This document shows positions 44,382-61,002 of a stretch of DNA of 64,000 nt, one piece after another. The DNA lies in the NCBI RefSeq assembly GCF_009749405.1, contig NZ_WBIQ01000002.1, forward strand, positions 248,001 through 312,000, in the 5' to 3' direction. Each line of letters starts with the position of its first letter. The first letter of the stretch is position 1. Made by a program: the position numbers and the translations under genes. Under the pieces are notes generated by a model. It was given only the letters and a program-made list of their open reading frames with translations, was not told the DNA's origin and ran no database searches. Origin of the DNA: Agromyces lapidis (GTDB taxonomy: Bacteria; Actinomycetota; Actinomycetes; Actinomycetales; Microbacteriaceae).

Positions 44382-44442
44382 GGCGGATGCCGCGGGGCGC
44401 GGGCCGCTCGCGACGACCCGCGATGCGTGGCAGGCTCGGTGC

Positions 44443-45504
44443 ATGGATCGCAGGGACCTGCCGCAGATCGGACCGCTCGAGGTCGAGCCCGAAGCGATCG
44501 AGGCGCACGGCGAACCGCTGGACGGGCTGCTTGCGCGGCTCGGGGCGGTCGTGCCCGACGCGCAGCTGTCGACCGGTGCGTCCGGTGGAGCAGCCGTGGC
44601 TCGCGGCGAGACGCCGCCGATGCCGGGCGAGGGGTGGAGGGTGCTCCACACCGACCGCGCGGTCGTCCTCGGCGCGCCGATCGATGACGCCCGACGGTTC
44701 TGGCGTCTCGCCAGCCTGCAGCAGCCCTCATCGCAGCGGCCCTCATCGCAGCAGCCGAACGCCCGGTTCGACCTGCACCCCGACCGCCATCCGCTTCGGC
44801 CGAGTCGCGCTGAACGGGGCCGGGGCCTCGTGCTGCGCTGGCCCGGCGTGACGACCTCGGCGCCTGACGTCGACTCGCTCTGGATCGACATCGTGAACGA
44901 GGGTGACGCGCCATGGGTTCCGAACGGCGACGGGTTCCACGTCGCAGCCGCGGTCGTTCGACCGGATCGCGACCGTGGCGTGTACTTCGGATTCGTCGCC
45001 GGTCATGACGGCGCGTTCCCCCTCGATCCGGGCGAGTACGGGCGGGTGCGCGCGCACTTCGACCAGAGCTCGCTCGACGGACTCGAGCCCGGCGAGGTGG
45101 AGGTGCACGCCTGGCTCATCGACCTCTCCATACGCACGAGCGAGCCGCTCCTGGTGCGCGTCGAGCCCGAGACGATCGAGCGCCGCCGCAATGCGGTACT
45201 CGATGCGCGCCCTGGGCCCTCGCGGGATGCCGCCGAGCAGACGCGCACGCGGATCGCCCTGCTGCGTACACTCGTCGGCGCGCGCGAGATGCTCCCCGAG
45301 CTCATCGACGCGCTCGACGGGCCGGGCGACCGCGAGCAGGGAATCGCGCGCATCGCCGAGGTGCTGGGCTGCACGCCCGACGAGGCTCGCGGCGTCGCCG
45401 CAATGCCGCTCGCGCGTTTCGGGCGCGCACAGCGCGAGTCGATGTCGGCAGAGCTGCGGGAACTCGAGCAGGTGCTCGGAAAGCTCGAGGAACGGGACCG
45501 GTGA
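44443..45504 (+). CDS. Unrecognised protein with a GyrA-tower-like C-terminus
   Basis: The 353-residue protein has no named family I recognise. Residues about 60-260 form beta-rich segments (WRVLHTDRAVVLGAPIDDAR, VDSLWIDIVNEGDAPW, GVYFGFVAGHDGAFPLDPGE). The last 75 residues (LLRTLVGAREMLPELIDALD, IARIAEVLGCTPDEARGVAA, MPLARFGRAQRESMSAELRE) follow the helix pattern of the coiled-coil tower of DNA gyrase/topoisomerase IV subunit A. No catalytic Tyr region or DNA-gate domain is present. A Ser/Gln/Pro repeat sits near residues 91-105. Its job is unknown. Confidence 0.6.
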   Translation: MDRRDLPQIGPLEVEPEAIEAHGEPLDGLLARLGAVVPDAQLSTGASGGAAVARGETPPMPGEGWRVLHTDRAVVLGAPIDDARRFWRLASLQQPSSQRPSSQQPNARFDLHPDRHPLRPSRAERGRGLVLRWPGVTTSAPDVDSLWIDIVNEGDAPWVPNGDGFHVAAAVVRPDRDRGVYFGFVAGHDGAFPLDPGEYGRVRAHFDQSSLDGLEPGEVEVHAWLIDLSIRTSEPLLVRVEPETIERRRNAVLDARPGPSRDAAEQTRTRIALLRTLVGAREMLPELIDALDGPGDREQGIARIAEVLGCTPDEARGVAAMPLARFGRAQRESMSAELRELEQVLGKLEERDR

Positions 45505-45611
45505 GTCGGCCGGTCGCTCATCGGCGCCGAAGCGACCGCTGATCGCGGGGAGTTCGACGCCTGCAGGGCGGCGGAGCTGCGAGCGTCGAGCTCGGTGTCG
45601 CGGGCGCCAGG

Positions 45612-46352
45612 TCAGTGCATGTTGTCGTTGCCGGTGACATGGGTGGCGTAGCCCGCGCACCCCGCATCCTCCCAGCGATAGGCGGCCCCTGCGCCGGTGT
45701 CGCCCCACATCGCGAGCTCCCACGCGGCGGTGCCGTCGTCATCGACGCCGAAGCCGTGTTCGGTCATGCACGCGTCGACCTCTGCCTGGTAGACCGCGGC
45801 GGCCTCCTCCCAGGTGAGTGCTTCGGGGTCGGGCTCGGGCAGGGGCGCTGACAGCGGGGTCCCTGCTGCGCGTGCGACGGCGACCGCGTGATCGCCGACC
45901 CCGAGGCATCCACGTCGCTCCCACTCGGAAGCGGGGACCGACCAGCCGTCGCGCTGCTCGCCGTAGTAGGCGTTCAACCAGATGACCGACTGTTCGAAGC
46001 TCAGCCCCCTGGGCTGCTTGTTCTGGTTCAGCCATGGCGCGGCGGGCAGGTACTCGACGCCCTGCCCGCTCATGCACTCGGCGATGACCTGCTCGCGGCC
46101 CATGTACTCCGAGCGCTCCTCGGTCGACTCGAGCTCAGAGCTGAACGGCTCGACGACCACGACATCGTCGTCGGTCGATGCGCTCGCCGCGGCGGCGTCG
46201 AGCCCGCCCGACACACCCGCCGACTGGACCTCGCCGAACGGCGGTTCGAACGGCGCGACTCCGTACGCACCGGCGACGGTGAGCCCGGCGGCGGCGGCGC
46301 ACACGACGAGGCCGCCGATCGCGAGGGGGGCCAAGAGTCGTCTGAGGTTCAT
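45612..46352 (-). CDS. Exported or membrane-anchored protein of a PadR-controlled operon
   Basis: The 246-residue protein has one N-terminal helix (about 6-30, LLAPLAIGGLVVCAAAAGLT) and an extracytoplasmic domain with four or five Cys and many Trp and Tyr (AECMSGQGVEYLPAAPWLNQ, LSFEQSVIWLNAYYGEQRDG, YQAEVDACMTEHGFGVDDDG). I recognise no family. The even spacing of Cys suggests disulfides. Its ATG overlaps the stop of the upstream membrane protein gene (ATGA). It is the last gene of the three-gene unit. Confidence 0.65.
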   Translation of the reverse strand: MNLRRLLAPLAIGGLVVCAAAAGLTVAGAYGVAPFEPPFGEVQSAGVSGGLDAAAASASTDDDVVVVEPFSSELESTEERSEYMGREQVIAECMSGQGVEYLPAAPWLNQNKQPRGLSFEQSVIWLNAYYGEQRDGWSVPASEWERRGCLGVGDHAVAVARAAGTPLSAPLPEPDPEALTWEEAAAVYQAEVDACMTEHGFGVDDDGTAAWELAMWGDTGAGAAYRWEDAGCAGYATHVTGNDNMH

Positions 46353-47110
46353 CGCGACCCCTCGTCGGGCTCGGGGGCAGCGGGCGTCGGTGCCGCCCAC
46401 CACGCGCTCATCGAGAGGAAGAAGAGCACCGCCGCGCCCGTCGCCACCCGGTTCAAGAGCACCATCTGCGCGGTCGACGACGCGAAGAACTCGGTGAACG
46501 TCACGCTCGTGTCGACGAGCGCGTACGTGCCGAAACGGATGAGCAGATAGGCCGCGACCGCGAGCACGAGCCCCGCGAAGCCGCGATGTCGCGCGACCAT
46601 GAGCAGCCACGAACCGACGAGGGCGAGCACGAGGCCCACCGCCGTGAGCTCGGCCACGTCGGCCGCGCCGTGCCAGTCGCCGAGCAGCACGCTGCGCGCA
46701 ACCCGCCAGACGACGAACACACCCCATGCCACGAGCGCGATCGCGGCGAGGTGCGCGAGCGCCGGCATCGCGAGCGGGAACGTGCCCCGCGGGGCACCGA
46801 GCGCGCCGCCGCGCAGACGAGCGCCGCGCCAGGCGAGGTCGGCGGGGATGCCGCGGATCGCCCGGCCGAGGATCGATGCGGTCGCGCCCGCCCCCGAGTG
46901 CGCGCGCTCCTCGAAGAGGTCGGAGGCGAGCTCGGCCCGACGACCGGCGGCGACCTCGTCGGGCAGGTCGGCGGTGTACCAGCGGCACCAGCCGATCACG
47001 GCGGCGTCGATGCGCCCGGCCGCGGGGTGCAGCGGGCGAGCGGATGCCTCGAGCCCGAGTGCTCGGTCGGCTTCGAGCGCTCCCTCGGGCTCGAGCCTGG
47101 CGTCGCTCAT
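46349..47110 (-). CDS. Multi-pass membrane protein of a PadR-controlled operon
   Basis: The 253-residue protein has a soluble N-terminal part with WCRWYTADLPDEVAAGRRAE and LASDLFEERAHSGAGA, resembling the cytosolic helix bundle found next to PadR regulators in actinobacteria. Four membrane helices follow between about residues 120 and 240. The pattern is common in PadR-membrane protein pairs, where the membrane protein may be controlled by, or may sense for, the regulator. Function is unknown. Both ends overlap neighbours by ATGA. Confidence 0.72.
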   Translation of the reverse strand: MSDARLEPEGALEADRALGLEASARPLHPAAGRIDAAVIGWCRWYTADLPDEVAAGRRAELASDLFEERAHSGAGATASILGRAIRGIPADLAWRGARLRGGALGAPRGTFPLAMPALAHLAAIALVAWGVFVVWRVARSVLLGDWHGAADVAELTAVGLVLALVGSWLLMVARHRGFAGLVLAVAAYLLIRFGTYALVDTSVTFTEFFASSTAQMVLLNRVATGAAVLFFLSMSAWWAAPTPAAPEPDEGSR

Positions 47111-47460
47111 GCGAACGCCGACCGGGGGCTGGGTGCAGGCGCGGTGCGCTGCTCGGTCTCGGTGCGACACGCGGCCACGCCGGCGCCGGTCACCCGGTAG
47201 AGCCGCCGTCGTGGGCGGCCTTCTGCCGCGGCGATCGCGGGATCCTCCCACTCGGATTCGACCAGGCCGCGCTCGGCGAGGCGACCGAGCGCCTTGTAGA
47301 GCGTGCCGTGGGCGGTGAGTGCCGAGGCTCCGGAACGGTCGGCGATGCGCTTCGCGAGAGCGAATCCGTAGAAGTCGCCGCCGTCGGCCTGAAGTTCGAT
47401 ACCCGCGCCGAGGATGTCGACCTCGAGGTCGACCAGTCGGCCTTCTCGTCTGCGTGGCAT
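47107..47460 (-). CDS. PadR family transcriptional regulator
   Basis: The 117-residue protein has the PadR winged helix: DGGDFYGFALAKRIADRSGA, LTAHGTLYKALGRLAERGLV and RPRRRLYRVTGAGVAA. A short C-terminal tail replaces the longer dimerisation helix of many PadR proteins. The ATG at 47460 follows TATACT (47467-47472 on the other strand) by six bases, so the message is probably leaderless. Three 14-bp repeats just upstream are the probable autoregulatory sites. Confidence 0.82.
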   Translation of the reverse strand: MPRRREGRLVDLEVDILGAGIELQADGGDFYGFALAKRIADRSGASALTAHGTLYKALGRLAERGLVESEWEDPAIAAAEGRPRRRLYRVTGAGVAACRTETEQRTAPAPSPRSAFA

Positions 47461-47468
47461 GGAGCCAG

Positions 47469-47527
47469 TATAGGAAGATATCCCCGAGACGTATAGGAAG
47501 ATATCGGACTTCCTATAGGAAGATATC
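47469..47527. promoter_or_regulatory. Three direct repeats, probable PadR operator
   Basis: TATAGGAAGATATC occurs exactly at 47469-47482, 47492-47505 and 47514-47527, with 23- and 22-bp periods (about two helix turns). TTCCTATAGGAA at the third copy is a further palindrome. The first copy overlaps the probable -10 of padR. The array also lies 60 bases before the DUF4232 gene. Confidence 0.8.
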
Positions 47528-47586
47528 TGCCCATATGCTAGCGTCCCCCTCGAGCCGCCTGAACGGGCGGCGCAGAAGGGAACGAC

Positions 47587-48750
47587 ATGAACACCAAGAG
47601 GGTGATGTTCCAAGCGGTCGCCGGCGTGGCGTTGACGGTGATGCTCACCGGGGGATCAGCGCTCGTCGCGGGCGCGCTCGACGTCGGCGGCGCGAAGACG
47701 CCGGCCGCAGCATCCGCGCCTGCCGCGGCATCGCCGGCCGTCGACATCGTGACGGCCGACGCCCGCGCGACCTCCGCCGCAGTGACGGCGGCGAACGCGA
47801 ATCGGGGGCAGGCGGCAGCCCAGGTGCAGCAGAACGACCGCGCCGCACCGGCCGGCCCCGTCCACTGCGAAGACGTGCAGCTCACCATGGACTACGTGGA
47901 GCGCCCCGACCGCTCGACATCGACGACGAACGCCTTCGACCTCGTCTTCACGAACACCGCGTCGCAGCCGTGCTCGTTCGACGGGTGGCCGGGTCTCGTC
48001 GCAGAGGACGCCGAGGGCGCGACCCTGACCTGGGCGCTCGCCTCGGGAACGACGAGCACGCTGGCCGTGGTGCCCCCGAACGGCGGCCGTGCCGTCGCCG
48101 AGGGCACGGCCGAGCTTCCCGCCGCGATCGGGTGCGCCGAGGCGACCTCCGACCGTCTGCGCGCCTACATCTCGTCGGACGGCGCGGGCGGCGGCATCGT
48201 CGACGACGTGCAGCTCCCGGTCTGCATCGACGGAACCTGGACGCTGTCGCTCGGATCGCTGACCGCGCTCCACGGCGCACCCGGTGAGGTGACCACGCCG
48301 ACCGAGCCCGAGCCGCAGCCCGAGCCTGAGCCGCAGCCGGTCAAGTGCCAGGACGAGCAGCTGAGCCTCGAGTTCGTCTCGCGGCCCGATCGCTCGGCCG
48401 ACGGCGCGGAGGCGTTCGAGCTCGTCTTCACGAACGCGAGCGAGACGCCCTGTGCGATGTGGGGATGGCCCGGACTGGTCGTGGAGGCGGCCGACGGAAC
48501 CCGCATCGGCTCGTCGTGGGCGGTCGGGGAGGACGACGAGCCGTTCGTCCTCGCGAACGGCGATGTCGCCACCGTGTTCGCCACCGCCCTCACTCCCAAG
48601 TCGTTGAGCTGCGAGGCGATCACCGCCGACCACGTGCGGGCGTACATCACCTCCGACGGTGCCGGGCCCGGCGTCGTCGCCGCTGCTCCGTTCGAGGTCT
48701 GCGCCGACGGCTCGAGCGTGCTCGAGATCGGGGCGCTCACCCCGGCCTGA
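47587..48750 (+). CDS. Exported protein with two DUF4232-like domains
   Basis: The 387-residue protein has a signal peptide (about residues 8-32) and an Ala-rich linker. Two homologous domains follow, at about 95-225 (CEDVQLTMDYVERPDRSTST, PCSFDGWPGLVAEDAEGA, AYISSDGAGGGIVD) and 255-385 (CQDEQLSLEFVSRPDRSADG, PCAMWGWPGLVVEAADGT, AYITSDGAGPGVV). They are joined by a Pro/Glu/Gln repeat. Each has paired Cys. DUF4232 domains occur in actinobacterial lipoproteins and wall proteins of unknown function. AAGGGAACGAC precedes the ATG, and the PadR array lies upstream. Confidence 0.8.
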   Translation: MNTKRVMFQAVAGVALTVMLTGGSALVAGALDVGGAKTPAAASAPAAASPAVDIVTADARATSAAVTAANANRGQAAAQVQQNDRAAPAGPVHCEDVQLTMDYVERPDRSTSTTNAFDLVFTNTASQPCSFDGWPGLVAEDAEGATLTWALASGTTSTLAVVPPNGGRAVAEGTAELPAAIGCAEATSDRLRAYISSDGAGGGIVDDVQLPVCIDGTWTLSLGSLTALHGAPGEVTTPTEPEPQPEPEPQPVKCQDEQLSLEFVSRPDRSADGAEAFELVFTNASETPCAMWGWPGLVVEAADGTRIGSSWAVGEDDEPFVLANGDVATVFATALTPKSLSCEAITADHVRAYITSDGAGPGVVAAAPFEVCADGSSVLEIGALTPA

Positions 48751-48919: not shown

Positions 48920-51900
48920 ATGGCTGACACGATCGCGAACGACACCGAAAGCGACCCTGACGCCGGCGACGATGTCGACGTCGGAGGCGATGGCGGCAGC
49001 GGCATCCCGGGCGACATCGCCGACATCACGAAGTGGGTCGGCAAGTGGCGCGCGCACGCCGTCGATCTCCTCCGTCTCGTCACGCTCACCCTCGTCGCAC
49101 TGATCGCGCTCGCCGAGATCGACCGGCTCATCGCGGGCAGCCTCGGCACCGGTGAAGAACTGCGCGGAAGCAGCGCACCGCTCACGGGCGTGATCGGGCC
49201 CCTGTCGTTCTCGGATCGAGCCTCGTGGGAGATCTGGTTCGACAACGCGGCGACGCGAGGCTCGGTGGGCGGATGGATCATCGCCTCGGCGCTGATCGAC
49301 GTCGCCTTCATCTACGCCTACGCCCGGTTCTTCCTGATGCTGATCGATTCGAAGCGCGTCACGGCCGACCGTCGGCCGACGCAGCTGGGCTTCCTCATCG
49401 TGCTGCTCATCGCGGACGGCGCCGAGAACGTGCTGCTCCTCCTCGGCGGCGGATCGCTCGTCCTGGGCATCGGACTCTCCGAAGAGGGGATCCTGCCAGT
49501 CCTGGTCGCGAGTGCGGCACTCGCGAAGTGGGTGGCCCTCGCGCTCCTCCTCGTCGCGCTCGCGCGCGATCCGAAGGTGCGGCACCTGACGTGGGCGGTG
49601 CTGCGCCGGCTCGCCCAGGCGTTCTGGCTGCACCGCCTCTCGGCGGTGCTCGTGGCGACCCTCTTCCTCGTCTCCTGCCTCCCGTTCGACGGCGTGCTCG
49701 ACCAGCTGCCCGACATCCAGCGCCAATGGGTCACCACGGGCGCCTGGGGCCATGGTCTGATCGCCGCCCTCAGCATCGCGATCGCCTCCTTCGCGGCGTT
49801 CGGGCTGGGGCGCGCGCGCACGCGCGCCTTCATCGACGTCAACGTGCGGGAGTTGAAACGGTTCCGTGCACCGGTCACCACGTCCCTCGCATGGTGGGCG
49901 ATCCCGGTGGTCATCTGGCTCGTCGTCGTGCTGTACTCCGTCATCACCGCAGGCGACTGGGCGATCCACTGGCCCGGCGCCGCGGTGTTCCTGGCGATCC
50001 CGATCGCGGTCTTCCTCCTCGCGTTGCTTCCGAAAGGGGCGCCTGAGCCGGAGGCGCGCCCCGACGCGCGAGTGCGGGCGCAATACGCCTGGCTCACGGG
50101 CGATGTGATCGCCGTGCTGCTCTGGGCGATCGCCGGACTCGGGCTCGTGCGCTCCCTCACCGGTCCGGTCTTCCTCGGCCCGGTCGCGGTGGCCGACACC
50201 GCACCCGACTGGGGCATCTGGTCGTGGGCGGTCGGAGCCCTCGCGGTCGGCGTGGCCGTCGCCATCGCGTCGCCGTGGCTGATGCTCCTCCTCACGAGGG
50301 CGCCCAAGTGGGCCGACCCGACCGAGTCGCTTGAGGTGCCCGCCCCGAAGATCTCGCTTCGCGAGCGCCGAACCTCGTCGAGCTGGCACACGTGGCGCTG
50401 GCACCGTCGTCGCCTCTGGGGGATCATGGCCGTCGGAGTCGCACTGCTCTTCGCGCTCCTGATCTGGCCGATCCAGATCGCGACCTTCATCGGTGCCGTC
50501 GCCACCACGGTCATCGCGCTCAGCGCGTGGGGTGCGGTGCTCGGCGCCTTCACGCTCGCCCTGCAGGACTACCTCCCGCCCGAGGTCTTCCTGCGGATGC
50601 GCCTGCGGGCTACGCCGGTGCTCACGCTCGCGATCACGATCCCGCTGGTCGCCGCGACCGTGTTCGCCCAGGTGCACTGGGGCGACCCATCGCTCCACGC
50701 CGTGCGGCAGGCGGGCAGCAGCGTCACGTCGGCATCGGATGGCGGTGGTGGGCGCCCGGGCTCCGATGCGCCGGAGGACACCTCGCGCACGAGCGTCGCG
50801 GATGACCCCGAAGCCTTCGACGACCTCGAGCGCGCCCTCACGGCGCAGGTGCAACGTCTCGGCCTCCAGCACTGCACTCTCGCCGAGTCCTCGGCGATCC
50901 CCGTCGTGATCTTCGTCGCCGAAGGCGGAGGCATCCGCGCCGCCTATTGGACCACTCGCGTGCTCGACGAGCTGCAGCGATCGGGCGGATGCTTCGCGAA
51001 GTCGACGCTGCTCTCGAGCGGAGTCAGCGGCGGTTCAGTCGGGCTGGCCCTCACGCACACCGCTGCCAGTCGAGTCGATGCCAAGGCCGCGCTGCTCGAC
51101 GTGGCTTCGCCCGACACGGTCGCGACCGGCGTGACCGGCCTCTTGGTGGGCGACATGGTGGCCTCGGCGACCGGGGTGCGAGTGCCCTCGCTCGTCGGCG
51201 GCGAGTTCGGCTGGCGCGACCGGGCGGGCCTCATCGAGCTCACCTGGCAGCACGATATCGAGGCGTTGAAGAAGCCGGCGCGCATGTTCGCGGATCCCGT
51301 GGTCGGGCTACCCATCCTCAACTCGACGGATGCCGCGTCGAAATGCCGGGTGCCGGTCACCCGGCTGCCGATCGTCGGCGACGGCGACGGGTGCGCACAG
51401 CCGACCGGTGCGCCGGCGGCGACCATTCCGATGCTCGACGCGTGCGTGCGCTCGCTCGACTGGGCCTCGGCGGCGATGCTGTCGGCGCGCTTTCCCATCA
51501 TCACGCCCGCCGGTCGACTCGGCGACCCCGACGGCGACGACGCGGGTGCCTGCGGGTTCACGACCCGGCAGCTCATCGATGGAGGTTATGCCGAAGGATC
51601 GGGCCTCGGCACCGCCGCCGATCTCGCGCCGCTCATCGCCTCCACCGTGCGCGAGAGGAACGCCACCGGGCAGCGCGACGCGTTCCTCGTGCCGATCCTC
51701 GTCTTCGCCCAGAACTCGGCCGGCTACGACCTCGCCGACGATCTGCGCGGCGTCTCGGCGGAACCGCTGGTGCCCCTGGTCGGCACGGCGGCCGAATCGA
51801 CGCTGACCGCGAAGAGCAGCTGGGTGCAGCGCATCTCGACCGCGTTCTCGCAGGTGTGCCCGTCGCGTGCCGAGGCGGGCGAGACACGGGCAGCGGCCTG

Positions 51901-52126
51901 CGCCGAGGCGCTCGCCTCGGTGCAGGCGGCGCTTCCGGCGCAGTTCGTCGCGGTCGCCCCATCGACGAAGCCGACGGTGGTGCCGCCGCTCGGCTGGGCC
52001 CTGTCGTCGTTCAGCATCGACAGCCTCGAGCGATCACTGCAGGACCAGCTCGACGGTCGCGTCGAGGGTCGGGCCGACCTCAAGGGGCTGCTCGAGTTGA
52101 GCCCGTCGCCGAGCGGCGACGAGTGA
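48920..52126 (+). CDS. Multi-pass membrane protein with a C-terminal patatin-like lipase domain
   Basis: The 1068-residue protein has an acidic Asp/Gly-rich start, then about ten or more hydrophobic helices between residues about 50 and 590 and a polar linker. A patatin domain follows from about 660: the oxyanion loop EGGGIRAAYW (Glu668 onward), the nucleophile elbow SGVSGGSVG with Ser703 and the dyad Asp887 in LIDGGYAEGSG. Patatins hydrolyse acyl esters of lipids. Fusion to a large polytopic region is unlike the soluble or single-helix bacterial patatins. The side of the membrane and the lipid substrate cannot be settled by eye. Confidence 0.82.
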   Translation: MADTIANDTESDPDAGDDVDVGGDGGSGIPGDIADITKWVGKWRAHAVDLLRLVTLTLVALIALAEIDRLIAGSLGTGEELRGSSAPLTGVIGPLSFSDRASWEIWFDNAATRGSVGGWIIASALIDVAFIYAYARFFLMLIDSKRVTADRRPTQLGFLIVLLIADGAENVLLLLGGGSLVLGIGLSEEGILPVLVASAALAKWVALALLLVALARDPKVRHLTWAVLRRLAQAFWLHRLSAVLVATLFLVSCLPFDGVLDQLPDIQRQWVTTGAWGHGLIAALSIAIASFAAFGLGRARTRAFIDVNVRELKRFRAPVTTSLAWWAIPVVIWLVVVLYSVITAGDWAIHWPGAAVFLAIPIAVFLLALLPKGAPEPEARPDARVRAQYAWLTGDVIAVLLWAIAGLGLVRSLTGPVFLGPVAVADTAPDWGIWSWAVGALAVGVAVAIASPWLMLLLTRAPKWADPTESLEVPAPKISLRERRTSSSWHTWRWHRRRLWGIMAVGVALLFALLIWPIQIATFIGAVATTVIALSAWGAVLGAFTLALQDYLPPEVFLRMRLRATPVLTLAITIPLVAATVFAQVHWGDPSLHAVRQAGSSVTSASDGGGGRPGSDAPEDTSRTSVADDPEAFDDLERALTAQVQRLGLQHCTLAESSAIPVVIFVAEGGGIRAAYWTTRVLDELQRSGGCFAKSTLLSSGVSGGSVGLALTHTAASRVDAKAALLDVASPDTVATGVTGLLVGDMVASATGVRVPSLVGGEFGWRDRAGLIELTWQHDIEALKKPARMFADPVVGLPILNSTDAASKCRVPVTRLPIVGDGDGCAQPTGAPAATIPMLDACVRSLDWASAAMLSARFPIITPAGRLGDPDGDDAGACGFTTRQLIDGGYAEGSGLGTAADLAPLIASTVRERNATGQRDAFLVPILVFAQNSAGYDLADDLRGVSAEPLVPLVGTAAESTLTAKSSWVQRISTAFSQVCPSRAEAGETRAAACAEALASVQAALPAQFVAVAPSTKPTVVPPLGWALSSFSIDSLERSLQDQLDGRVEGRADLKGLLELSPSPSGDE

Positions 52127-52183
52127 TCGACCATCGCAGGGCCGGCGTGGGTCGCGAGTGGTCGGCGGCGGAGAGCAGAAGGC

Positions 52184-52199
52184 CCCCGGTCTCCCGGAG
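52184..52199 (-). terminator. GNRA-type hairpin downstream of the tRNA-Phe fragment
   Basis: Read leftward it is CTCCGG-GAGA-CCGGGG, a six-pair stem (one T-G wobble) with a GAGA tetraloop, 8 bases beyond the CCA of the tRNA fragment. It is best seen as the original terminator of the tRNA gene. Confidence 0.55.
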
Positions 52200-52206
52200 G
52201 GTTCGA

Positions 52207-52252
52207 TGGTGGCTCCGACCGGCATCGATCCGGTGACCTTTCGATTTTCAGT
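52207..52252 (-). other. 3' fragment of tRNA-Phe, probable attachment-site scar
   Basis: Read leftward, the 46 bases begin with ACTGAAAATCG (anticodon GAA in a CTGAAAA loop), continue to the T-arm ACCGG-ATCGATG-CCGGT and end with the acceptor strand CGGAGCC and ACCA. The 5' half is absent: upstream bases cannot pair with the anticodon stem, and no D-arm follows. Integrative elements that use tRNA genes leave such 3' copies at one end. tRNA-Phe is called from the anticodon; the T-loop is slightly irregular. Confidence 0.7.
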
Positions 52253-52926
52253 GAGCCTGGGCGGTTTTTGCTCAATTCTTATGGACATGATATCGCGCTG
52301 ATCAGGGATTCTTCTGAATGGTCACAGTTGGTTTCAGTTCGTTTTCCCACACTTAATGGCACATTAATGGCACAGATTTGGCACAAGATCGGGGCGGCGG
52401 GACCACGTCAGCGAACGATCCGAGCCGACCAAGTCGGGGCCGGATGCCTCGTCCGTGTGTCGGGCAGTTTGGGACGCTCACCTCGGTCGCAGGGCCCTGC
52501 GACGATACCGGCTCGGTGGCGCGCAGTTGTTCTTCGAGCTGGGAGGCGCACTCGAATAATCCGACGGTGCGAGCCCTTCGTCACGCCGCTCGACGCGAAT
52601 GTGCGTGGGTGCTCGAGGTGCCGCGCGGCCACGAGGCTGGCGAGCGACGGGATCGAGGCAAGGTTTACCCCGATACCGTGTTGCGGTTGGCGTCCCCGTG
52701 CGTGCGTCTTCATCCGGCGGGGGTAAACGGGCCGCCTCAAGCCTCTTTGCGTGAACTTGAATCGCCAGCGGCAGCCCGCAGCCCGACCGGCAATCGGGCG
52801 TCCCAGCGAATCCGCTTGCTGACGTCCCATAGCGGGCCGGACATCGGGAGCAGATCCGTGAGTCACCACCTCCCATCCGACCGAGTTGGAGACGGTCGCG
52901 CACATGTAGACGAACAGAAAGCTGCC
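52253..52926. other. Junction region without a supportable gene
   Basis: The first 150 bases are clearly richer in A and T than the flanks. Open frames exist on both strands (for example 52408-52935 on the minus strand) but show no recognisable domain, mostly Arg/Ser/Pro composition and no integrase motif. Other structure is a 9-bp inverted pair GTTTACCCC (52663-52671) and GGGGTAAAC (52720-52728). A decayed integrase or transposase cannot be excluded. Confidence 0.5.
52353..52385. repeat. Three tandem 11-bp repeats near the att scar
   Basis: TTAATGGCACA is repeated exactly at 52353-52363 and 52364-52374, followed by the variant GATTTGGCACA at 52375-52385. Short direct repeats about 100 bp from an att core are what arm-type integrase binding sites look like. 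Confidence 0.55.
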
Positions 52927-52962
52927 GTTCACCACGCGTTCATTTAGACGACCTTCTATATG
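52927..52962 (+). promoter_or_regulatory. PHO-box-like repeats and -10 upstream of pstS
   Basis: GTTCACCACGC (52927-52937) and GTTCATTTAGA (52938-52948) are adjacent 11-bp direct repeats beginning GTTCA, the form of PhoP boxes in actinobacteria. TATATG (52957-52962) is a plausible -10. Together they predict induction under phosphate limitation. Confidence 0.6.
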
Positions 52963-53027
52963 TTGTGCCGGGTTCGACCGGCATCACATTCATCGATGAG
53001 GCGAAATCCTCTCCCGGAAGGATCACA

Positions 53028-53993
53028 GTGTCTTACCGTTCTCTCAAGCTCGCGGGGCTCAGCGCCACCATCGCTGTCGCCGCCCTTGTTCTCACCGCGT
53101 GTGGCGGACAGCCCGCCGCCGGCGGCGACTCGGCCGATGGAGGGGTCAGCGGCTCAGTCGTCGCCGACGGCTCATCGACCGTCGCCCCGCTCACGGAGGC
53201 CGCCGCGGACTTCTTCCGCGACGAAGCCCCCGACGTCAACGTCACGGTCGCCACCTCCGGCACCGGCGGCGGGTTCGCAAAGTTCTGCGCCGAGGAGACA
53301 GACATCTCCAACGCCTCACGCCCGATCAAGGACGAAGAGATCACCCTCTGCGAAGAGGCCGGTATCGAGTACACCGAGATCGTCATCGCGAACGACGGCC
53401 TCTCAGTCGTCGTGAACCCCGAGAACGACTTCGCCAAGTGCCTGACCGTCGAACAGCTCAACACCATCTGGGGCCCGGAGGCCGAGGGCACGGTCACGAA
53501 TTGGAACCAGGTCGACCCGTCGTTCCCCGACCTCGAGCTCGCGCTGTTCGGTGCCGGCACCGATTCGGGCACGTTCGACTACTTCACCGACGCGATCAAC
53601 GGCGAAGAGGGCGCGATCCGCACGGACTACAGCCCCTCCGAGGACGACAACATCACCGTGCAGGGTGTCGCGGGTGATGAGGGCGCGATCGGGTTCCTCG
53701 GTCTCTCGTACGTCGAGGAGAACCCCGACTCGATGAAGGCTGTCGAGGTCGACGGCGGTGCAGGCTGCGTCGCTCCGACCGCGGAGACCGTGCAGGACGG
53801 CACCTACTCGCCCCTCGGCCGCGAACTGTTCATCTACGTGAACAACGCCTCGTACGCCGAGAAGCCGCAGGTCAAGTCGTTCGTCGACTTCTACGTCGAG
53901 TCCGAGGCCGAGGTCGCCGAGGCGGCGCTCTTCATCGGTCTGACCGAGGAGCAGAAGACCACGGCTCAGGACGAGCTCGCGACCCTCGGCTGA
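53028..53993 (+). CDS. pstS: Phosphate ABC transporter substrate-binding lipoprotein
   Basis: The GTG at 53028 follows GGAAGGATCACA. The 321-residue product has a lipoprotein signal (ALVLTACGGQ, lipobox LTAC) and a phosphate-binding fold with VVADGSSTVAPLTEAAADFF, VATSGTGGGFAKFCAEETDI, SRPIKDEEI and LFGAGTDSGTFDYFTDAING. The SSTV, SGTGGG and GTDSGTF loops are the anion-coordinating segments. It captures phosphate outside the cell for PstCAB. In an arsenic island, selective phosphate capture would limit arsenate entry. That purpose is inferred. Confidence 0.93.
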   Translation: MSYRSLKLAGLSATIAVAALVLTACGGQPAAGGDSADGGVSGSVVADGSSTVAPLTEAAADFFRDEAPDVNVTVATSGTGGGFAKFCAEETDISNASRPIKDEEITLCEEAGIEYTEIVIANDGLSVVVNPENDFAKCLTVEQLNTIWGPEAEGTVTNWNQVDPSFPDLELALFGAGTDSGTFDYFTDAINGEEGAIRTDYSPSEDDNITVQGVAGDEGAIGFLGLSYVEENPDSMKAVEVDGGAGCVAPTAETVQDGTYSPLGRELFIYVNNASYAEKPQVKSFVDFYVESEAEVAEAALFIGLTEEQKTTAQDELATLG

Positions 53994-54001
53994 CGACGCT
54001 G

Positions 54002-54988
54002 ATGCTGGCCAACACCACGGCCTCGGACACCGAGGCCACCACGACCGCCAGCACGGGCGGCCCGACGACTCCGTCGGGCCGCCCGCCTCGGTCATCGCTC
54101 GCAGGGCGTGCACGGCCAGGCGAGGCAGTCATCAAGCTCGTGCTCCGTCTCGCGGCAGCCGTCGCGGTCCTCACCACCATCGGCATCGTCATCGCCCTGC
54201 TGGTGCCCGCCATCGGATTCTTCCGCGAAGTGCAGGTCTTCGACTTCCTCTTCGGCGATCGATGGGCGCCGCGATTCGCGGATGCATCCTTCGGCGTCAT
54301 CCCGCTTGTCACCGCCACGCTCTGGACTACTGCGATCGCTTTGCTTGTCGCCGTGCCGCTCGGCCTCGGCGCCGCGATCTTCCTCTCCGAGTACGCGCGC
54401 CCGAGGGTACGGAACACGCTGAAGCCGATCCTCGAGTTGCTCGCGGGAATTCCGACCGTCGTCTATGGGCTCTTCGCACTCCAGTTCATCCAGACGACCG
54501 TGTTCCGTGAATGGCTGCGGCTGGACACCGGCGCGTTCAGCGTCCTCGCGGCCGGCCTCGTCATGGGCGTCATGATCATCCCAACCGTGGCGTCCATCTC
54601 TGAGGACGCCATGTCGGCCGTGCCGATGTCGCTTCGTCAGGGCTCGTTCGCGCTCGGCGCGAACCGCATGCAGACCAGCCTGCGCGTCGTGTTTCCCGCT
54701 GCACTCTCCGGCGTTATGGCCGCCGTCGTCCTCGGCATCTCCCGCGCCGTCGGCGAGACGATGATCGTGGCGATCGCTGCCGGCAGCCAGGCTCGCATCG
54801 TCACCGGACCCCTCGAGCAGGGGCAAACCATGACCGGATTCATCGCGAACGCTGCTCTCGGCGACTCCCGGGTCGGCTCGCTCGAGTACGACACGCTCTA
54901 CGCCGTCGGCCTGCTTCTGTTCCTGATCACGCTGATCGTGAACTTCATCAGCATCCGACTCGTCCGCCGATTCCGACAGGCCTACTGA
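54002..54988 (+). CDS. pstC: Phosphate ABC transporter permease
   Basis: The 328-residue membrane protein has a Thr/Pro-rich 45-residue N-terminal tail and six helices. PstC features are FFREVQVFDFLFGDRWAPRF, LGLGAAIFLSEYARPRVRNT, ELLAGIPTVVYGLFALQF and GANRMQTSLRVVFPAALSGV (EAA loop region). It starts eight bases after pstS and ends two bases before pstA, so the genes are one operon. Confidence 0.93.
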   Translation: MLANTTASDTEATTTASTGGPTTPSGRPPRSSLAGRARPGEAVIKLVLRLAAAVAVLTTIGIVIALLVPAIGFFREVQVFDFLFGDRWAPRFADASFGVIPLVTATLWTTAIALLVAVPLGLGAAIFLSEYARPRVRNTLKPILELLAGIPTVVYGLFALQFIQTTVFREWLRLDTGAFSVLAAGLVMGVMIIPTVASISEDAMSAVPMSLRQGSFALGANRMQTSLRVVFPAALSGVMAAVVLGISRAVGETMIVAIAAGSQARIVTGPLEQGQTMTGFIANAALGDSRVGSLEYDTLYAVGLLLFLITLIVNFISIRLVRRFRQAY

Positions 54989-54990
54989 CC

Positions 54991-55902
54991 ATGCGAACAC
55001 TCCAGGACTCCCTCGCCGGTGCGCCGACGATGCCCCTCAAGACCGGCAAGGCACACGGTGAGCGTCGAGCCGGCCCGCTCATCTTCCTGATCGTGCTCTG
55101 GCTCAGCCTTGCGGTCGCGGTGATCTTTCTCCTCACGCTCATCGTGAACCTCCTCCTCGAGGGCGGGAGCCGGTTCGGGATGCCGCTGTTCACCGAGTAC
55201 CCGTCCTCCTCTCCCGACCGTGCCGGTGCACGCCCGGCGATTCTCGGGTCGATCTGGGTGATCGCCACCACGGCGCTGCTCACCATCCCCCTTGGTGTCG
55301 CCGCCGCGCTGCACCTCGAGGAGTTCGCCGACAAGAAGCACTGGTTCAACCGGATCATCGAGCTGAACGTGCAGAACCTCGCCGCGGTTCCCTCGATCGT
55401 CTACGGTCTGCTCGCTCTCGCGTTCCTCGCGCTGATCGGGGTGCGTGACAAGAACATCGTCATCGGCGGCGCGCTTGCCCTGAGCCTGCTCATCCTTCCG
55501 GTGATCATCATCGCCACCCGCGAGGCGATCCGCGCGGTGCCCTCTGAGATCCGCGACGGCTCTCTTGCCCTCGGCGCGACCAAGTGGCAGACCACCTGGC
55601 GACAGGTCCTCCCGGCATCGGTACCGGGTATCGCGACCGGCTCCATCCTCGCCCTCTCGCGCGCGCTTGGCGAGGCGGCACCGCTCCTGCTTCTCGGCGC
55701 GCTCGTGTTCGTCAGCTTCGACCCCAATGGCCTGCTCAGCGGCTTCACGACCCTCCCGATCCAGATCTTCAACTGGACGGGGCGCCCGCAGGAGGGGTTC
55801 CACGAACTCGCCGCCGCGGCGAGCATTCTCCTCCTCGGCCTCCTGCTCCTCATGAACGGGCTCGCCATCTTCATCCGCAACCGATACCAGAAACGGTGGT
55901 AA
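54991..55902 (+). CDS. pstA: Phosphate ABC transporter permease
   Basis: The 303-residue permease has six helices and PstA blocks: [60 protein letters not shown] and [20 protein letters not shown]. With PstC it forms the phosphate channel. It lies between pstC and pstB with very short spacers. Confidence 0.93.
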
Positions 55903-55907
55903 TCCAC

Positions 55908-56762
55908 ATGGCCAGCGCTCCCGACAACGCACCCATGCACCTGCACGCCACGCACCCCGGCCAGGTCCCCGACTACATCGCCCGGCCCATCATGCGCGTC
56001 GAGAACGTGGACGTCTACTACGGTGACTTCCGCGCCGTGACCGAAGTGAACCTCGAATTCGGCCTCCACGAGATCACCGCACTCATCGGCCCGTCCGGAT
56101 GCGGCAAGTCGACCCTTCTACGCTCACTCAACCGCATGAACGACCTCATCGACGGCGCCCGAGTCGACGGTGAGATCCTCTTCCACGGCGAGAACATCTA
56201 CAGCAAGGGCGTCGACCCGATCGAGGTTCGCCGTCGCATCGGAATGGTGTTCCAGAAGCCCAACCCCTTCCCGAAGTCGATCTACGACAACATCGCCTAT
56301 GGGCCCCGGGTCACCGGCATGAAGGTGGAGTCCATGGACGACCTCGTCGAGGAGTCGCTCACCCGCGCGGCGCTCTGGGACGAGGTCAAGGACAAGCTCA
56401 AGCAGTCGGCCATCGGCCTGTCAGGTGGGCAGCAGCAGCGTCTTTGCATCGCCCGAGCGATCTCCGTACGCCCGGACGTGATCTTGATGGATGAGCCGTG
56501 CGCGTCGCTGGACCCCATCGCGACCATGCGCATCGAGGACCTCATGCAGGAGTTGCGGGAGCAGTACACGATCGTGATCGTCACGCACAACATGCAGCAG
56601 GCAGCACGGGTCGCGGACCGCACCGCATTCTTCACCGCTCAGGTGTCGGAGGGGACCGGGGCACGCACTGGAGTGCTCGTCGAGTACGGCACCACGACCC
56701 AGATCTTCGAGGATCCGAACGATCAGCGCACCGAAGACTACATCTCCGGTCGTTTCGGATGA
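55908..56762 (+). CDS. pstB: Phosphate ABC transporter ATP-binding protein
   Basis: The 284-residue ATPase has Walker [10 protein letters not shown], the Q-loop region [20 protein letters not shown], signature LSGGQQQRL, Walker [13 protein letters not shown] and the switch His in [11 protein letters not shown]. About 30 extra N-terminal residues with several His precede the ABC fold. Its stop overlaps the start of the response-regulator-like gene (ATGA). No phoU gene follows, unlike many pst operons. Confidence 0.95.
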
Positions 56763-57535
56763 GCACCGTCAGCCCAGGGCAGGCCACCGCGTCCCTCGCG
56801 AACGATTTCGCGTACGCGCACCCTGGAGCGTCGAAGCACTCGATCGGCGCCCCCCGGTGGCCGGCTCGCGTCCTGTTCATCGAATCCCGATCCTCTCCGG
56901 GCTATCCTGCGGAGTCCTTCGAAACCCACGGATTCGAGATCCAGGGCTACAGCGATGCCATCGGCGCCCTCCTGGCCGTCAGGCTCGAGGAGCCAGCCGC
57001 GATCGTCGCCCCGACCGACATGATCAACGTCGACTTCCTCAGTTTCATCGAAGCGATGACGGTGTGGAGCGAAGTCCCTGTGATCGTCGGCATCGCCAGT
57101 CATGCGGGGGCCACCGACCTTGCCTATGAGGCCATCGATCGGGGTGCGCGATCGATTCTCGCCTTGCCGTGCCGGGCGGACCAGCTCGTCGCGGCTGTCC
57201 GCGCGTGCGGAATCCGATCAGATGTGACCGCGCGCCCGATCGAGATCGGCAGATTGCTCGTCGATCCGCAGGCGTTCAAATGCACGATCAACGGGCGCAC
57301 GGTGCCGCTCACCGCACGCGAGTTCCTGTGCATGCACCACCTGATGCTGGCTTCACCTCGAGTGGTCAGCGTCGAGGAACTCACTCGTGCCCTGACCACC
57401 TATGACGAAGGCAGTATCTCCGCTACCCGCGTCCTCGTGACCCGTGTGCGGAAGAAGTTCGCAGCGGCCTCTCCAGGCTCGGCGAAGGTTCTCGAGACGA
57501 TTCGCGGCATCGGATATCGGATCGCTGCCGAGTAG
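56759..57535 (+). CDS. Atypical OmpR-type response regulator
   Basis: The 258-residue protein has a receiver-like domain (residues about 35-155) and a C-terminal OmpR winged helix ([55 protein letters not shown]). In the receiver the beta-3 strand reads [14 protein letters not shown]: the usual phospho-acceptor Asp is replaced, and the N-terminal acidic pair is absent (VLFIESRS). It should therefore act without phosphorylation. It is translationally coupled to pstB and no kinase gene is nearby, so it may tie pst expression to another signal. It ends four bases before the convergent arsR-arsC fusion. Confidence 0.8.
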
Positions 57536-57538
57536 TCC

Positions 57539-58504
57539 TCACCGGAGATCGAGACTCGCCATCAGCGCTTCGACATGCGTCCGGACTTCATCGCGGATGC
57601 GGCGGACCTCGTCGATCGGCAGGCCGAGCGGGTCCGGGATCTTCCAGTCCATGTATTGGCGCCCTGGATATACCGGGCACGCGTCGCCACAACCCATGGT
57701 GACGATCACGTCAGCGGCCTGCACGACCTCATCGGTCAACGGTTTGGGGAACTCCGCAACGGTCGGGACGCCGATCTCTCCGAGCGCCTCCGCCACCACC
57801 TGATCGATCGCGTCGGCCGGCTTGGAACCGGCGGTCCGGACATGCACACGCTCGCCGGCGAGGGTGCGGAGCAGCCCGGCCGCCATCTGAGAACGGCCCG
57901 AGTTCTGCACGCAGACGAAGAGCACCTCCGGGACGCCGGTCAGATCGAATCCTTGCGCTGACGCAAGGGCACCGAGCCGGTCAGTTGCAAACCTGCTGGT
58001 CAACGACGGAAGATGCCGAGTCGTCTTCGCCCGCGAGTACAGCAACTGGTAGCTCTCAGCGACATACCGCTCAACCGTCTCCCGCGAGAACTGGGCGCTG
58101 AACCGGTAGGCGAGACGATCTGCGATGCGCTGAATGACCGACGGGAGTGCGCTCACGTCGATCTCTCCACCGGCGGGTTCCACCGGTTCATAGATGGGTT
58201 TTCCCGCGAGAAGGCGTCCAAACCGAACCCACGCCTCAGCGGACGGAATCAACTGGGATGCAGACGCCCCGGGCCGTGGCACCAGCAACCCAGACTCTTC
58301 CAGCACCCCGAGGTGCGCGAGGACGGATCCGGCGTCGACTTCAAGCTGCGCCCCCAACTCTGTCGGGCTCCAGGGCCGATCTGGATCGCTTGCGAGGATG
58401 CTCAGCAAGCGGAGTCGAACCGGGTCTGCGAGCGCCGTGATCTGTATGGCGCGGCTCTCTGCTGATGCCGCATCCAGAGGTCCAGGCGAGCCGGGCGCGC
58501 TCAT
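57539..58504 (-). CDS. ArsR-arsenate reductase fusion protein
   Basis: The 321-residue protein has three parts. An ArsR-like winged helix (about 20-90; ITALADPVRLRLLSILASDP, VLAHLGVLEESGLLV) comes first. A three-helix segment (about 115-180; LAYRFSAQFSRETVERYVAE) follows. Last is a low-molecular-weight-phosphatase-type ArsC (about 190-321; [40 protein letters not shown]). The catalytic Cys is in CVQNSGRS and a further Cys pair in MGCGDAC. The winged helix has no Cys pair for metalloid sensing. It starts three bases after arsR and is cotranscribed with it. Confidence 0.85.
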   Translation of the reverse strand: MSAPGSPGPLDAASAESRAIQITALADPVRLRLLSILASDPDRPWSPTELGAQLEVDAGSVLAHLGVLEESGLLVPRPGASASQLIPSAEAWVRFGRLLAGKPIYEPVEPAGGEIDVSALPSVIQRIADRLAYRFSAQFSRETVERYVAESYQLLYSRAKTTRHLPSLTSRFATDRLGALASAQGFDLTGVPEVLFVCVQNSGRSQMAAGLLRTLAGERVHVRTAGSKPADAIDQVVAEALGEIGVPTVAEFPKPLTDEVVQAADVIVTMGCGDACPVYPGRQYMDWKIPDPLGLPIDEVRRIRDEVRTHVEALMASLDLR

Positions 58505-58507
58505 ACG

Positions 58508-58831
58508 TCACCGCAGCAGGTCGTCGATCTCCGTCGCGCGATCCGCGACCACGGAGAACCAGACATGCTTGCCGCGCTGGTCGCGGACGAGAAGACCATC
58601 GTCGACCATGATTCGCAGGTGATGGCTGACCGTCGGTTGCGTGAGCTGCAAGCGATCGGCGAGTTCGCCCCCGGTCGCTTCTGCGTTGGGACTGCTTCGG
58701 ATGAGGCTGAGGAGCTGCAAGCGGGTCGGATCTGCGATCGCACGAAGGGTACGAGCAAGCGATTCTGCAGCTTCCCGGTCGAGCGCCGTGGACGGCTGTC
58801 CCTGCGGGATCCGGAGCGGACGGGCACCCAT
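58508..58831 (-). CDS. arsR: ArsR family repressor
   Basis: The 107-residue protein is a lone winged helix: LARTLRAIADPTRLQLLSLI, ATGGELADRLQLTQPTVSHH, LRIMVDDGLLVRDQRGKHVW. The usual ELCVCDL arsenite site is replaced by a Cys-free stretch and the protein has no cysteine at all. It must sense by other residues or depend on a partner. A degenerate ArsR box overlaps its start codon. It precedes the ArsR-ArsC fusion gene by three bases. Confidence 0.82.
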   Translation of the reverse strand: MGARPLRIPQGQPSTALDREAAESLARTLRAIADPTRLQLLSLIRSSPNAEATGGELADRLQLTQPTVSHHLRIMVDDGLLVRDQRGKHVWFSVVADRATEIDDLLR

Positions 58832-58845
58832 ATGTCGAATTCTAC
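58830..58845. promoter_or_regulatory. Degenerate ArsR-type box at the arsR start
   Basis: ATATGTCGAATTCTAC agrees at 11 of 16 positions with the box at 62670 (ATAGA-N6-TCTAT) and overlaps the arsR start codon. It may be a weaker operator for arsR itself. Confidence 0.4.
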
Positions 58846-58917
58846 CGGAGCGGCCACGCCCCGGCCGTCGGACCCACGCGACGATGCCGCGATCGCGGCC
58901 GTGACCCTGCCCATGTC

Positions 58918-59904
58918 CTAGGACGTCTCGAGGATGATCGCTGCTTGTTCCTCCACCGGCTCGGCGAGCCCGTGCGCGGCGAGGTAGTGCTCGGCGTCGA
59001 GGGCCGCGGCGCATCCGGTGCCTGCGGCCGTGATGGCCTGACGGTAACGCTTGTCGACCAGGTCACCGCACGCGAAGACGCCCTTGAGGTTCGTGTGGGT
59101 CGACGGATGTGCCACCTTCACGTAGCCGTCGTCGTCGAGGTCGACCTGGCCGGCGACGAGCTCGCTGCGCGGGTCGTGCCCGATCGCGATGAACAATCCG
59201 GTCGCGTCGAGCGCGGCATCCTCACCGGTCGTGGTGTCGCGGAGTCGGAGACGCTCGAGGCCGTCGTCGCCTTCGACGGCGATGACTTCCGCGTTCCAGT
59301 AGGGGCGGATCTTCGGGTTGGCGAAGGCGCGTTCCTGCATGATGCGCGAGCCGCGGAGCGAGTCACGGCGATGCACGAGGGTGACGGAGTCGGCGAAGCG
59401 AGTGAGGAACATGGCCTCCTCGAGCGCGGAGTCGCCGCCGCCGACGACGGCGATGTCCTTGCCCTTGAAGAAGAACCCGTCGCAGGTCGCGCACCAGGAG
59501 ACGCCGCGGCCCGTCAGCCGTTCCTCGCCCTCGATGCCGAGCTTGCGGTAGGCCGAGCCCATCGCGAGGACGACGGCGTGGGCGCGGTATTCGACGCCGT
59601 TGATGGTGCGGATGGTCTTGACTGCGCTGGTGAGTTCGACTTCGGTGGCGTCGTCGTAGACGATGCGGGCGCCGAAGCGTTCGGCCTGTTCGCGCATCTG
59701 GTCCATGAGTTCGGGGCCCATGATGCCCGTGGAGAAGCCGGGGTAGTTCTCGACTTCGGTCGTGGTGACCAGGGCGCCGCCGGCTTCGACCGAGCTCGCG
59801 AGCACGACGGGAGACAGGCCGGCGCGGGCGAGGTACACGGCCGCTGTGTATCCAGACGGGCCGGAGCCGATCACGACGACGTTCTCAATGGACTGCTCGC
59901 TCAT
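58918..59904 (-). CDS. trxB: Thioredoxin reductase
   Basis: The 328-residue flavoprotein has the FAD motif [20 protein letters not shown], the redox pair in [10 protein letters not shown], the NADPH motif [20 protein letters not shown] and [11 protein letters not shown], and the closing [20 protein letters not shown]. It reduces thioredoxin with NADPH. In this cluster it should supply electrons to the thioredoxin-linked ArsC proteins. It overlaps the upstream arsC gene by ATGA. No thioredoxin gene is in the window. Confidence 0.95.
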
Positions 59905-60563
59905 GAAACGACCTCCAAGGTCTGCAGCAGGTCTTCGATGTGGGCACGAATCTCCTCGCGGACCCGCCGGACGTCATCGAGCACGAGATGCTCAGGGTCA
60001 TCGAGGTGCCAGTCAAGGTACTGCTTGCCCGGATAGATCGGGCACGCGTCACCGCAACCCATCGTGACCACGACATCTGCGGCCTGCACCACGTCATCGG
60101 TCAGCGGCTTCGGGAACTCTCGGCTCGAGTCGAGCCCAAGTTCGTTGAGCACCACCACCACGGCAGGATTCAGTTCGGCGGCCGGCATCGAACCCGCCGA
60201 TCGCACGTGCACCCGATCACCGGCGATGCTGTGCGTCAGCACAGCTGCCATCTGGGAACGGCCGGAGTTCTGCTCGCAGACGAACAGCACCTCCGGCACA
60301 TCGTGGGCGAGCGCGCCTTTCGCCTGGGCGAGGGCAGTCAAGCGGTCGGTCGCGAATCGTCGGACGTTGTTGGTGAGGTGAGCCTTGACGGTCGCGGTGC
60401 GCAGTAGGGCGGTGTACGACTCGAGCACGTACCGCTCAACCGTTTCGCCGTTGAAGGTGCCGTCGAAGCGCTCGGTCAATTGGAGCGCGAGATCGTGAAG
60501 GTAGCGCTCCGGATAGCTGATACCTGGCATACCCCGCCGACCGGAGGTGTCGAGTCCGGACAT
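59901..60563 (-). CDS. arsC: Arsenate reductase with N-terminal helical domain
   Basis: The 220-residue protein has a three-helix segment (about 18-82; [34 protein letters not shown]) like that in the two fusions, then an ArsC domain with [40 protein letters not shown] and [17 protein letters not shown]. Cys in CEQNSGRS attacks arsenate, and the MGCGDAC cysteines can relay to thioredoxin or mycothiol. It lies between the short arsC and trxB and is coupled to trxB by ATGA. Confidence 0.9.
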
Positions 60564-60565
60564 GG

Positions 60566-60976
60566 CTACGCGGCCGGCGCGATCTCAGCGAGGAGGGCCT
60601 CGACGCGGCCCCGAATGTCATCGCGGACACGGCGCACCGTCTCGATGCTTTTGCCCGCAGGGTCTTCGAGTTCCCAGTCCTCGTACCGCTTGCCGGGAAA
60701 AATGGGGCACGCGTCGCCGCAGCCCATCGTGATCACGACATCCGATTCCTTCACAGCGTCGACGGTCAGGATCTTCGGAGTGTTGCCGGCGATGTCGATG
60801 CCCTCTTCCGCCATCGCCTCGACGGCGACGGGGTTGATCTGGTCCTTCGGCTCCGAGCCCGCGGACAAGACGTCGACACGGCCGCCACCGAGTTCACGGA
60901 GGTAACCGGCGGCCATCTGCGAGCGACCCGCGTTGTGGACGCAGACGAACAGGACCGCGGGCTTTTCAGTAGTCAT
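60566..60976 (-). CDS. arsC: Arsenate reductase, LMW-phosphatase type
   Basis: The 136-residue protein is the bare ArsC domain: [60 protein letters not shown] and DWELEDPAGKSIETVRRVRD. The P-loop CVHNAGRS and the Cys pair in MGCGDAC match thioredoxin- or mycothiol-linked enzymes that reduce arsenate to arsenite. An ArsR-type box lies directly upstream. It is the first gene of the arsC-arsC-trxB unit. Confidence 0.93.
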   Translation of the reverse strand: MTTEKPAVLFVCVHNAGRSQMAAGYLRELGGGRVDVLSAGSEPKDQINPVAVEAMAEEGIDIAGNTPKILTVDAVKESDVVITMGCGDACPIFPGKRYEDWELEDPAGKSIETVRRVRDDIRGRVEALLAEIAPAA

Positions 60977-60986: not shown

Positions 60987-61002
60987 ATAGACGCAAATCT
61001 AT
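60987..61002. promoter_or_regulatory. ArsR-type operator before arsC
   Basis: ATAGA-CGCAAA-TCTAT is an inverted repeat with a 6-bp spacer, 11 bases before the arsC start and reaching the aquaporin stop. It has the same arms and spacing as the site at 62670. Confidence 0.65.

Follow-up and report, generated by a model that had tools for sequence, protein, structure and literature searches.

A partial tRNA-Phe gene borders a pst-ars cluster

The window, a 64,000-nucleotide stretch (C6:248001-312000) of a 3.8-Mb draft genome in 15 contigs (G000), contains on its minus strand the 3′ end of a tRNA-Phe gene, running from the A that precedes CTGAAAA through CCA, with pst and ars genes to its right (Table 1). 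ARAGORN called zero tRNA genes in the window and Rfam returned no family at or above the gathering score there, leaving a scar without a 5′ part. The earlier note had read these 46 bases as a tRNA-Phe 3′ half lacking its 5′ half, and the other copies in the genome (below) bear this out.

The same note took the hairpin directly 3′ of the CCA for a terminator. A GAGA-loop hairpin is present, but by itself it makes an unconvincing one: its fold (−14.5 kcal/mol, z = 0.28) is no more stable than that of shuffled sequence, 119 of 200 shuffles folding equally well or better, and no T-run follows the loop, so that the terminator role is weakly supported. By eye, a comparable hairpin stands behind most of 30 tRNA-Phe genes and most of 14 relatives' scars, and the one in the window is probably a host-side remnant of the former region downstream of tRNA-Phe.

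The pst and ars genes belong to an element of about 30 kb, element A, that continues past the window (C6:300253-330303, window-equivalent 52253-82303). From left to right it encodes PstSCAB and a regulator, the ars gene products, redox and resistance-like proteins, a MobF relaxase (133.9 bits against a cut-off of 100; open for 899 aa), Hachiman HamA and HamB with RmrA-like and weakly RmrT-like proteins, a 229-aa protein, a 73-aa protein and a tyrosine integrase. An MFS protein and an SBF-family transporter gave sub-threshold matches to ArsK and ACR3, respectively, and none of the element A proteins scanned matched arsenite oxidase. Judged by family matches, the cargo would serve arsenate reduction, arsenite export, phosphate uptake and Hachiman defence. 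Elsewhere in the genome a single further PstS relative was found, a match of 31% identity (C6:630024-630704). With the pst-ars block (window 52300-60200) as query, 316 records matched, none covering 80%; similar blocks occur on actinobacterial plasmids.

The 73-aa gene immediately precedes the integrase gene and is small and xis-like, with a DNA-binding-protein family match (E = 2.8e-8). Divergent from it lies the gene of the 229-aa protein (C6:328013-328702). Members of the element family share 73-92% identity in this protein, with most of the last 30 residues invariant. At E ≤ 0.001 it matched nothing in Pfam, PHROG, PADLOC or NCBIfam, and the structure predicted for a homologue was of low confidence (mean pLDDT 56.2, pTM 0.44). 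The gene set of element A comes from a simple codon-score picker, with which genes may be missed, small conjugation genes included; among the 30 of 31 predicted proteins scanned against Pfam, no conjugation apparatus was named, and neither was an FtsK-like transfer protein or a Rep, six proteins being without a Pfam match and a divergent Rep thus possible.

Table 1. Features of the locus, in window positions unless marked C6 (contig numbering).
Feature	Position	Strand	Basis
Inferred host-side remnant hairpin (GAGA loop), weak as terminator	about 52178-52206	-	directly 3′ of CCA
tRNA-Phe 3′ end, distal attachment-site scar, 46 bases	52207-52252	-	identity to other copies; edge 52252/52253 common to relatives
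Conserved attachment-site arm of element A, 124 bases, abutting scar	52253-52376	-	match to scar edge in 25/60 genus genomes
Three TGGCAC direct repeats, 11-bp spacing (52357, 52368, 52379), putative arm-type integrase sites	52355-52390	+	
PstS-family phosphate-binding protein	52965-53993	+	TIGR02136 above cut-off; PF12849
PstC	54002-54988	+	TIGR02138 above cut-off
PstA	54991-55902	+	TIGR00974 above cut-off
PstB	55896-56762	+	TIGR00972 above cut-off
Winged-helix response-regulator-like regulator	56759-57535	+	PF00486
ArsR-like domain fused to low-molecular-weight-phosphatase/ArsC-like domain	57539-58504	-	PF12840, PF21234, PF01451
ArsR-family regulator	58508-59014 (start uncertain; 58511-58831 scanned)	-	PF01022
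Thioredoxin reductase	58918-59904	-	TIGR01292 above cut-off
ArsC-like arsenate reductase	59901-60563	-	PF01451; below NCBIfam cut-offs
ArsC-like arsenate reductase	60566-60976	-	PF01451; below NCBIfam cut-offs
Aquaporin-family channel	60999-61916 (start uncertain; 61002-61769 scanned)	-	PF00230
Second ArsR/ArsC-like fusion	61769-62671	-	PF01451, PF21234, HTH matches
FAD-dependent pyridine-nucleotide oxidoreductase	62811-64000, on past window end (C6:310811-312196)	+	PF07992
Tyrosine integrase	C6:329040-330269 (window-equivalent 81040-82269)		PF00589; ends 34 bases before middle core

The scar abuts a conserved arm with TGGCAC repeats, which in contig numbering stand at C6:300357, 300368 and 300379. 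The other end of element A has two TGGCAC in the same orientation (C6:330218 and 330229), inside the 3′ end of the integrase gene. TGGCAC also occurs singly at many other spots of the region, as would be expected of a hexamer; the repeats that flank the core of element A are probably arm sites for its integrase. Relatives show visible conservation of the stretch from the left repeats to the scar but not of the cargo side.

Three core copies and two tandem elements

We searched the whole 3.8-Mb genome for the 45-mer from CTGAAAA to CCA with at most three mismatches, using the same pattern backwards as control. The 45-mer occurs at exactly three places, all on the minus strand of C6 (300207-300251, 330304-330348 and 368676-368720), and the control pattern at none. 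The 46 bases of the scar are identical to the middle copy (46/46) and differ from the intact tRNA-Phe (45/46) in the last base, an A in the scar and a G after the intact gene. With a 78-base query, the match extended over 53 bases at the middle copy and 46 at the window copy. The scar cannot reasonably be put down to chance.

Rightward from the scar and on the same strand, the middle copy is about 30 kb and the intact tRNA-Phe about 68 kb away. The intact gene (C6:368679-368751, window-equivalent 120679-120751) has tRNA-Asp and tRNA-Glu genes upstream. CCG in place of CCA now follows it (C6:368676-368678), derived from the side of the neighbouring element B; an encoded CCA is also missing from tRNA-Phe in many relatives.

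Element B (C6:330349-368675, about 38 kb) is a siphovirus-like prophage. Its matches, PHROG among them, include an integrase, a RecT-like protein, an exonuclease, terminase, portal, protease, major head, tape measure and tail proteins and an endolysin; terminase, portal, protease, major head, tape measure, endolysin and integrase together identify a temperate siphovirus prophage. Element B also has a predicted tRNA-Leu (CAA) gene at C6:345892-345976. PF00589 matched five places in the genome, two of them in this region (C6:329592-330113 and 331131-331628). In 1-kb bins, GC is 0.71-0.75 in the host flanks, 0.62-0.72 in element A and 0.57-0.64 in element B.

From the geometry of the scar, the earlier note had placed an island to its right, with an intact tRNA-Phe and possibly an integrase beyond position 64,000. 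The pst/ars element, its integrase and the middle core all lie rightward, the integrase beside a matching core copy, and the genome search located the intact tRNA-Phe sharing the bases of the scar at the predicted place rather than elsewhere among unrelated flanks. The scar does mark a mobile-element boundary, but the picture of one island gives way to two tandem elements, because the extra core at C6:330304-330348 parts the pst/ars element from the prophage.

The tRNA-Phe site in relatives

We used the 124-base arm as query against 60 genus genomes, G000 included (E ≤ 0.001). It matched in 29 and to its last base in 25, and in 23 of these 25, again including G000, the arm adjoins a partial tRNA-Phe copy base for base; in the other two (G008 and G043) the copy is degraded. 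Of 299 family genomes sampled evenly, the arm matched 10, from 6 of 85 genera. Seven of these matches reach the last base, and behind six of the seven, among them those in G080 and G338 of other genera, stands a tRNA-Phe 3′ copy; at a second arm match in G338, the pattern found no tRNA-Phe 3′ copy. The tRNA-Phe itself was matched in 57 of the 60 genus genomes. In 23 of the 59 other genomes a partial copy (query start 31-33) shares strand and contig with the intact gene and lies downstream of it; in four more (G004, G020, G044 and G047) it is on another contig.

We compared the loci of 19 relatives (20 stretches) out of the 27 with a partial copy, requiring E ≤ 1e-8 and query coverage of 40% or more. 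The four-gene backbone of integrase, 73-aa, 229-aa and relaxase genes is complete at 13 of the 19 loci. A close integrase, whole or in large part, is present at 15; G037 has shorter pieces and G035 a distant one. The pst/ars and Hachiman genes of element A had no match at the 19 loci, save one 28%-identical ABC ATPase (G025). In a PADLOC scan of 18 larger cargo proteins of relatives (E ≤ 1e-15), six matched (a type I restriction enzyme, DRT4 and AbiU in G016, LmuB in G009, a type II restriction enzyme in G024 and AriAB in G013) and 12 gave none. Two elements without a match to the integrase of element A (G030 and G025) use the same tRNA-Phe core, with TGCCCAC-type repeats near both ends.

The arm is present in 17 of the 20 elements compared, that of G000 included. 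By eye, 13 of the 17 carry GTGCCA-type repeats at both ends, three carry GGGCCA-type ones at both ends (G028, G031 and G053), and one, G001, which has a broken integrase, is mixed; within the GTGCCA set, G009 has one proximal repeat altered and G037 a single distal copy. The integrase N-terminus reads GRDSPTR in the three GGGCCA elements and DTPSR in G001 and in the 10 GTGCCA elements where it can be read. Arm repeats and integrase N-terminus may thus have changed together, although this comparison is weak evidence, since a single event would account for it if the three GGGCCA integrases form one clade.

Occupancy of the site varies among relatives. In G024, which carries a different element there, the window genes 47587, 46349, 42618, 42218 and 41483 follow beyond the scar in this order at 82-94% identity. 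The five span window 41483-48750, and the G024 flank matches exclude genes 44443 and 48920; further on lies window gene 21281 (97% identity over 426 of 734 aa). Of the 20 stretches, 9 keep one or more window-flank genes, in the eight besides G024 mostly 19143 or 21281. The remaining 11 have no window-flank gene within about 10 kb: two match an element gene only (G035 and G041) and nine have no match. In G041 the only gene matched is that of the 229-aa protein, a possible remnant. In G005 a relative of gene 19143 lies about 3 kb from the tRNA-Phe and the 10 kb compared held no match to the element proteins used, which makes G005 a candidate for an empty site.

Between the scar and the conserved flank, the window has a gene for a large predicted membrane protein (48920-52126). 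It matched in 12 of the 59 other genus genomes, not beside tRNA-Phe where both are on one contig; for the remaining matches the tRNA-Phe is on another contig. The gene is absent from that place in G024; it may be a later local addition. Used as the neighbouring gene with which to seek an empty site with the flank of G000 itself, it led to none in the genus genomes. The comparison with relatives lacking pst/ars genes here, which the earlier note had called for, succeeded in part: relatives carry the scar with other cargo, but the exact left flank with an empty site was not found. The outcome that the note held against an island, the same fragment in relatives with neither cargo nor an empty site, is not what we see.

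A scan of genome contigs with the integrase of element A gave 27 loci, the 21 closest at 63-98% identity and six distant ones at 27-33%. The 21 come from Agromyces, Leifsonia, Cryobacterium, Leucobacter, Homoserinimonas and unnamed actinobacterial bins. An intact tRNA-Phe lies within about 350 bases downstream of the integrase match at 17 of the 21, and at three there is none in the DNA range examined. Leifsonia poae shows the same tandem layout, having a 96% identical integrase with a core copy in that place and an intact tRNA-Phe almost 10 kb beyond; this suggests exchange between genera.

Origin of the scar

The anatomy of the locus comprises three cores in the same direction, an integrase and repeats at a core, a conserved edge, a common backbone and differing cargo. 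We conclude, with a probability of about 95%, that the scar is the displaced 3′ end of the host tRNA-Phe, left by site-specific integration of element A, beside prophage B at the same tRNA. The tyrosine integrase of element A would recombine the chromosomal tRNA-Phe with an attP core, itself a copy of the tRNA 3′ half, restoring an intact tRNA at one end of the element and leaving the scar at the other, and the 73-aa protein would help excision. Element B would have used the same tRNA-Phe and now sits between element A and the intact gene, which accounts for three core copies in one direction. Two routes could have produced this one layout, element A arriving first and B then entering the restored tRNA, or A entering the distal core of B. 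Since a MobF relaxase is present and no conjugation apparatus was detected, element A most likely moves as an integrative and mobilizable element with the apparatus of a helper. Integrase-mediated integration, excision aided by the 73-aa protein and helper mobilization through the relaxase would together make up its cycle.

Three collinear cores could also recombine end to end, and parts of a review (PMC5704250) allow for transfer of composite tandems, so that the whole might be a single composite island of about 68 kb with one entry event and an internal middle core. We regard this as very unlikely: each element has an integrase of its own, A also having arm repeats near both ends and B prophage genes and lower GC, and relatives hold elements with the backbone of A between scar and tRNA without the genes of B. 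Joint arrival of an older tandem of A and B is a further possibility. We give practically no credence to a reading of the scar as a chance repeat, or as a duplicated tRNA gene that has decayed, with no tie to mobility; tRNA pseudogenes exist and the 5′ half is indeed missing, but there are two such copies, one with an integrase beside it, and the recurrence of the layout in relatives, together with a conserved arm whose end coincides with the scar edge in many genomes, speaks strongly against this reading.

A separate question is whether element A has decayed into an island no longer capable of excision or transfer. Some relatives do have broken or truncated integrases (G001, G012, G037 and G054). 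We nevertheless hold decay in G000 to be unlikely, as its integrase (409 aa) and relaxase frames are open and both ends keep core and repeats; the integrase also appears to keep what we take to be the tyrosine-recombinase residues.

For the displaced tRNA-Phe 3′ end, a broader picture can be drawn, to which we assign only a slim chance. A MobF element family would repeatedly occupy tRNA-Phe in Agromyces-type bacteria and their relatives, with fixed backbone and arms, exchanged cargo in which defence is often included, and arm repeats and integrase N-terminus changed together; and since the arsenic element and the prophage share a core, prophage excision could take the arsenic element along, to package or transfer it.

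The locus offers a bounded mobile element: comparison places its scar edge to the base, the positions of its integrase and repeats are known, and sister genomes allow backbone and cargo to be told apart at the same site. It also provides a natural series in which to study how integrase residues correspond to the arm repeats they read, and by what routes genes for arsenic resistance and phage defence move within soil actinobacteria.

Relation to known systems

In our literature searches we recognised no paper dealing with this element or with tRNA-Phe elements of Agromyces. The features of a tRNA-targeted integrative element are present: tRNA 3′-end repeats at the borders, an intact tRNA at the end of the array, an integrase by the core and variable occupancy. 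Integrative and mobilizable elements (IMEs) are recognized by a relaxase and/or an oriT, and element A has a MobF family relaxase. Parts of PMC5704250 describe IMEs at such tRNA 3′-end targets and in tandem with prophages. With IMEs that use a single tyrosine integrase and tRNA 3′ ends, element A shares the target, the flanking direct repeats and the restoration of the tRNA at one end, as well as an integrase with a small xis-like gene, a relaxase, no detected conjugation apparatus and a tandem with a prophage. It differs in its pst/ars and Hachiman cargo, which apart from one distant ABC ATPase is unmatched at the 19 relatives' loci.

Actinomycete integrative and conjugative elements (AICEs), for which sections of PMC3218068 give the layout att-tra-rep-int-att and, in Frankia, tandem pairs in one tRNA that excise separately and jointly, resemble element A in the tyrosine integrase with a directionality factor, the tRNA 3′ end and the tandem pairs in one tRNA; in contrast to them, element A has a MobF relaxase, and an FtsK-like transfer protein and a Rep were not seen among its proteins scanned. 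Arsenic islands, as portions of PMC3834237 present them, likewise hold ars and pst genes together, but are defined around the arsenite oxidase aioBA, which no scanned protein of element A matched. The basic phenomenon is already known, tRNA-targeted IMEs, IME-prophage tandems, tandem AICEs and pst-bearing arsenic islands being described in the parts of these papers cited here, and the edges of element A are unusually clear for its kind.
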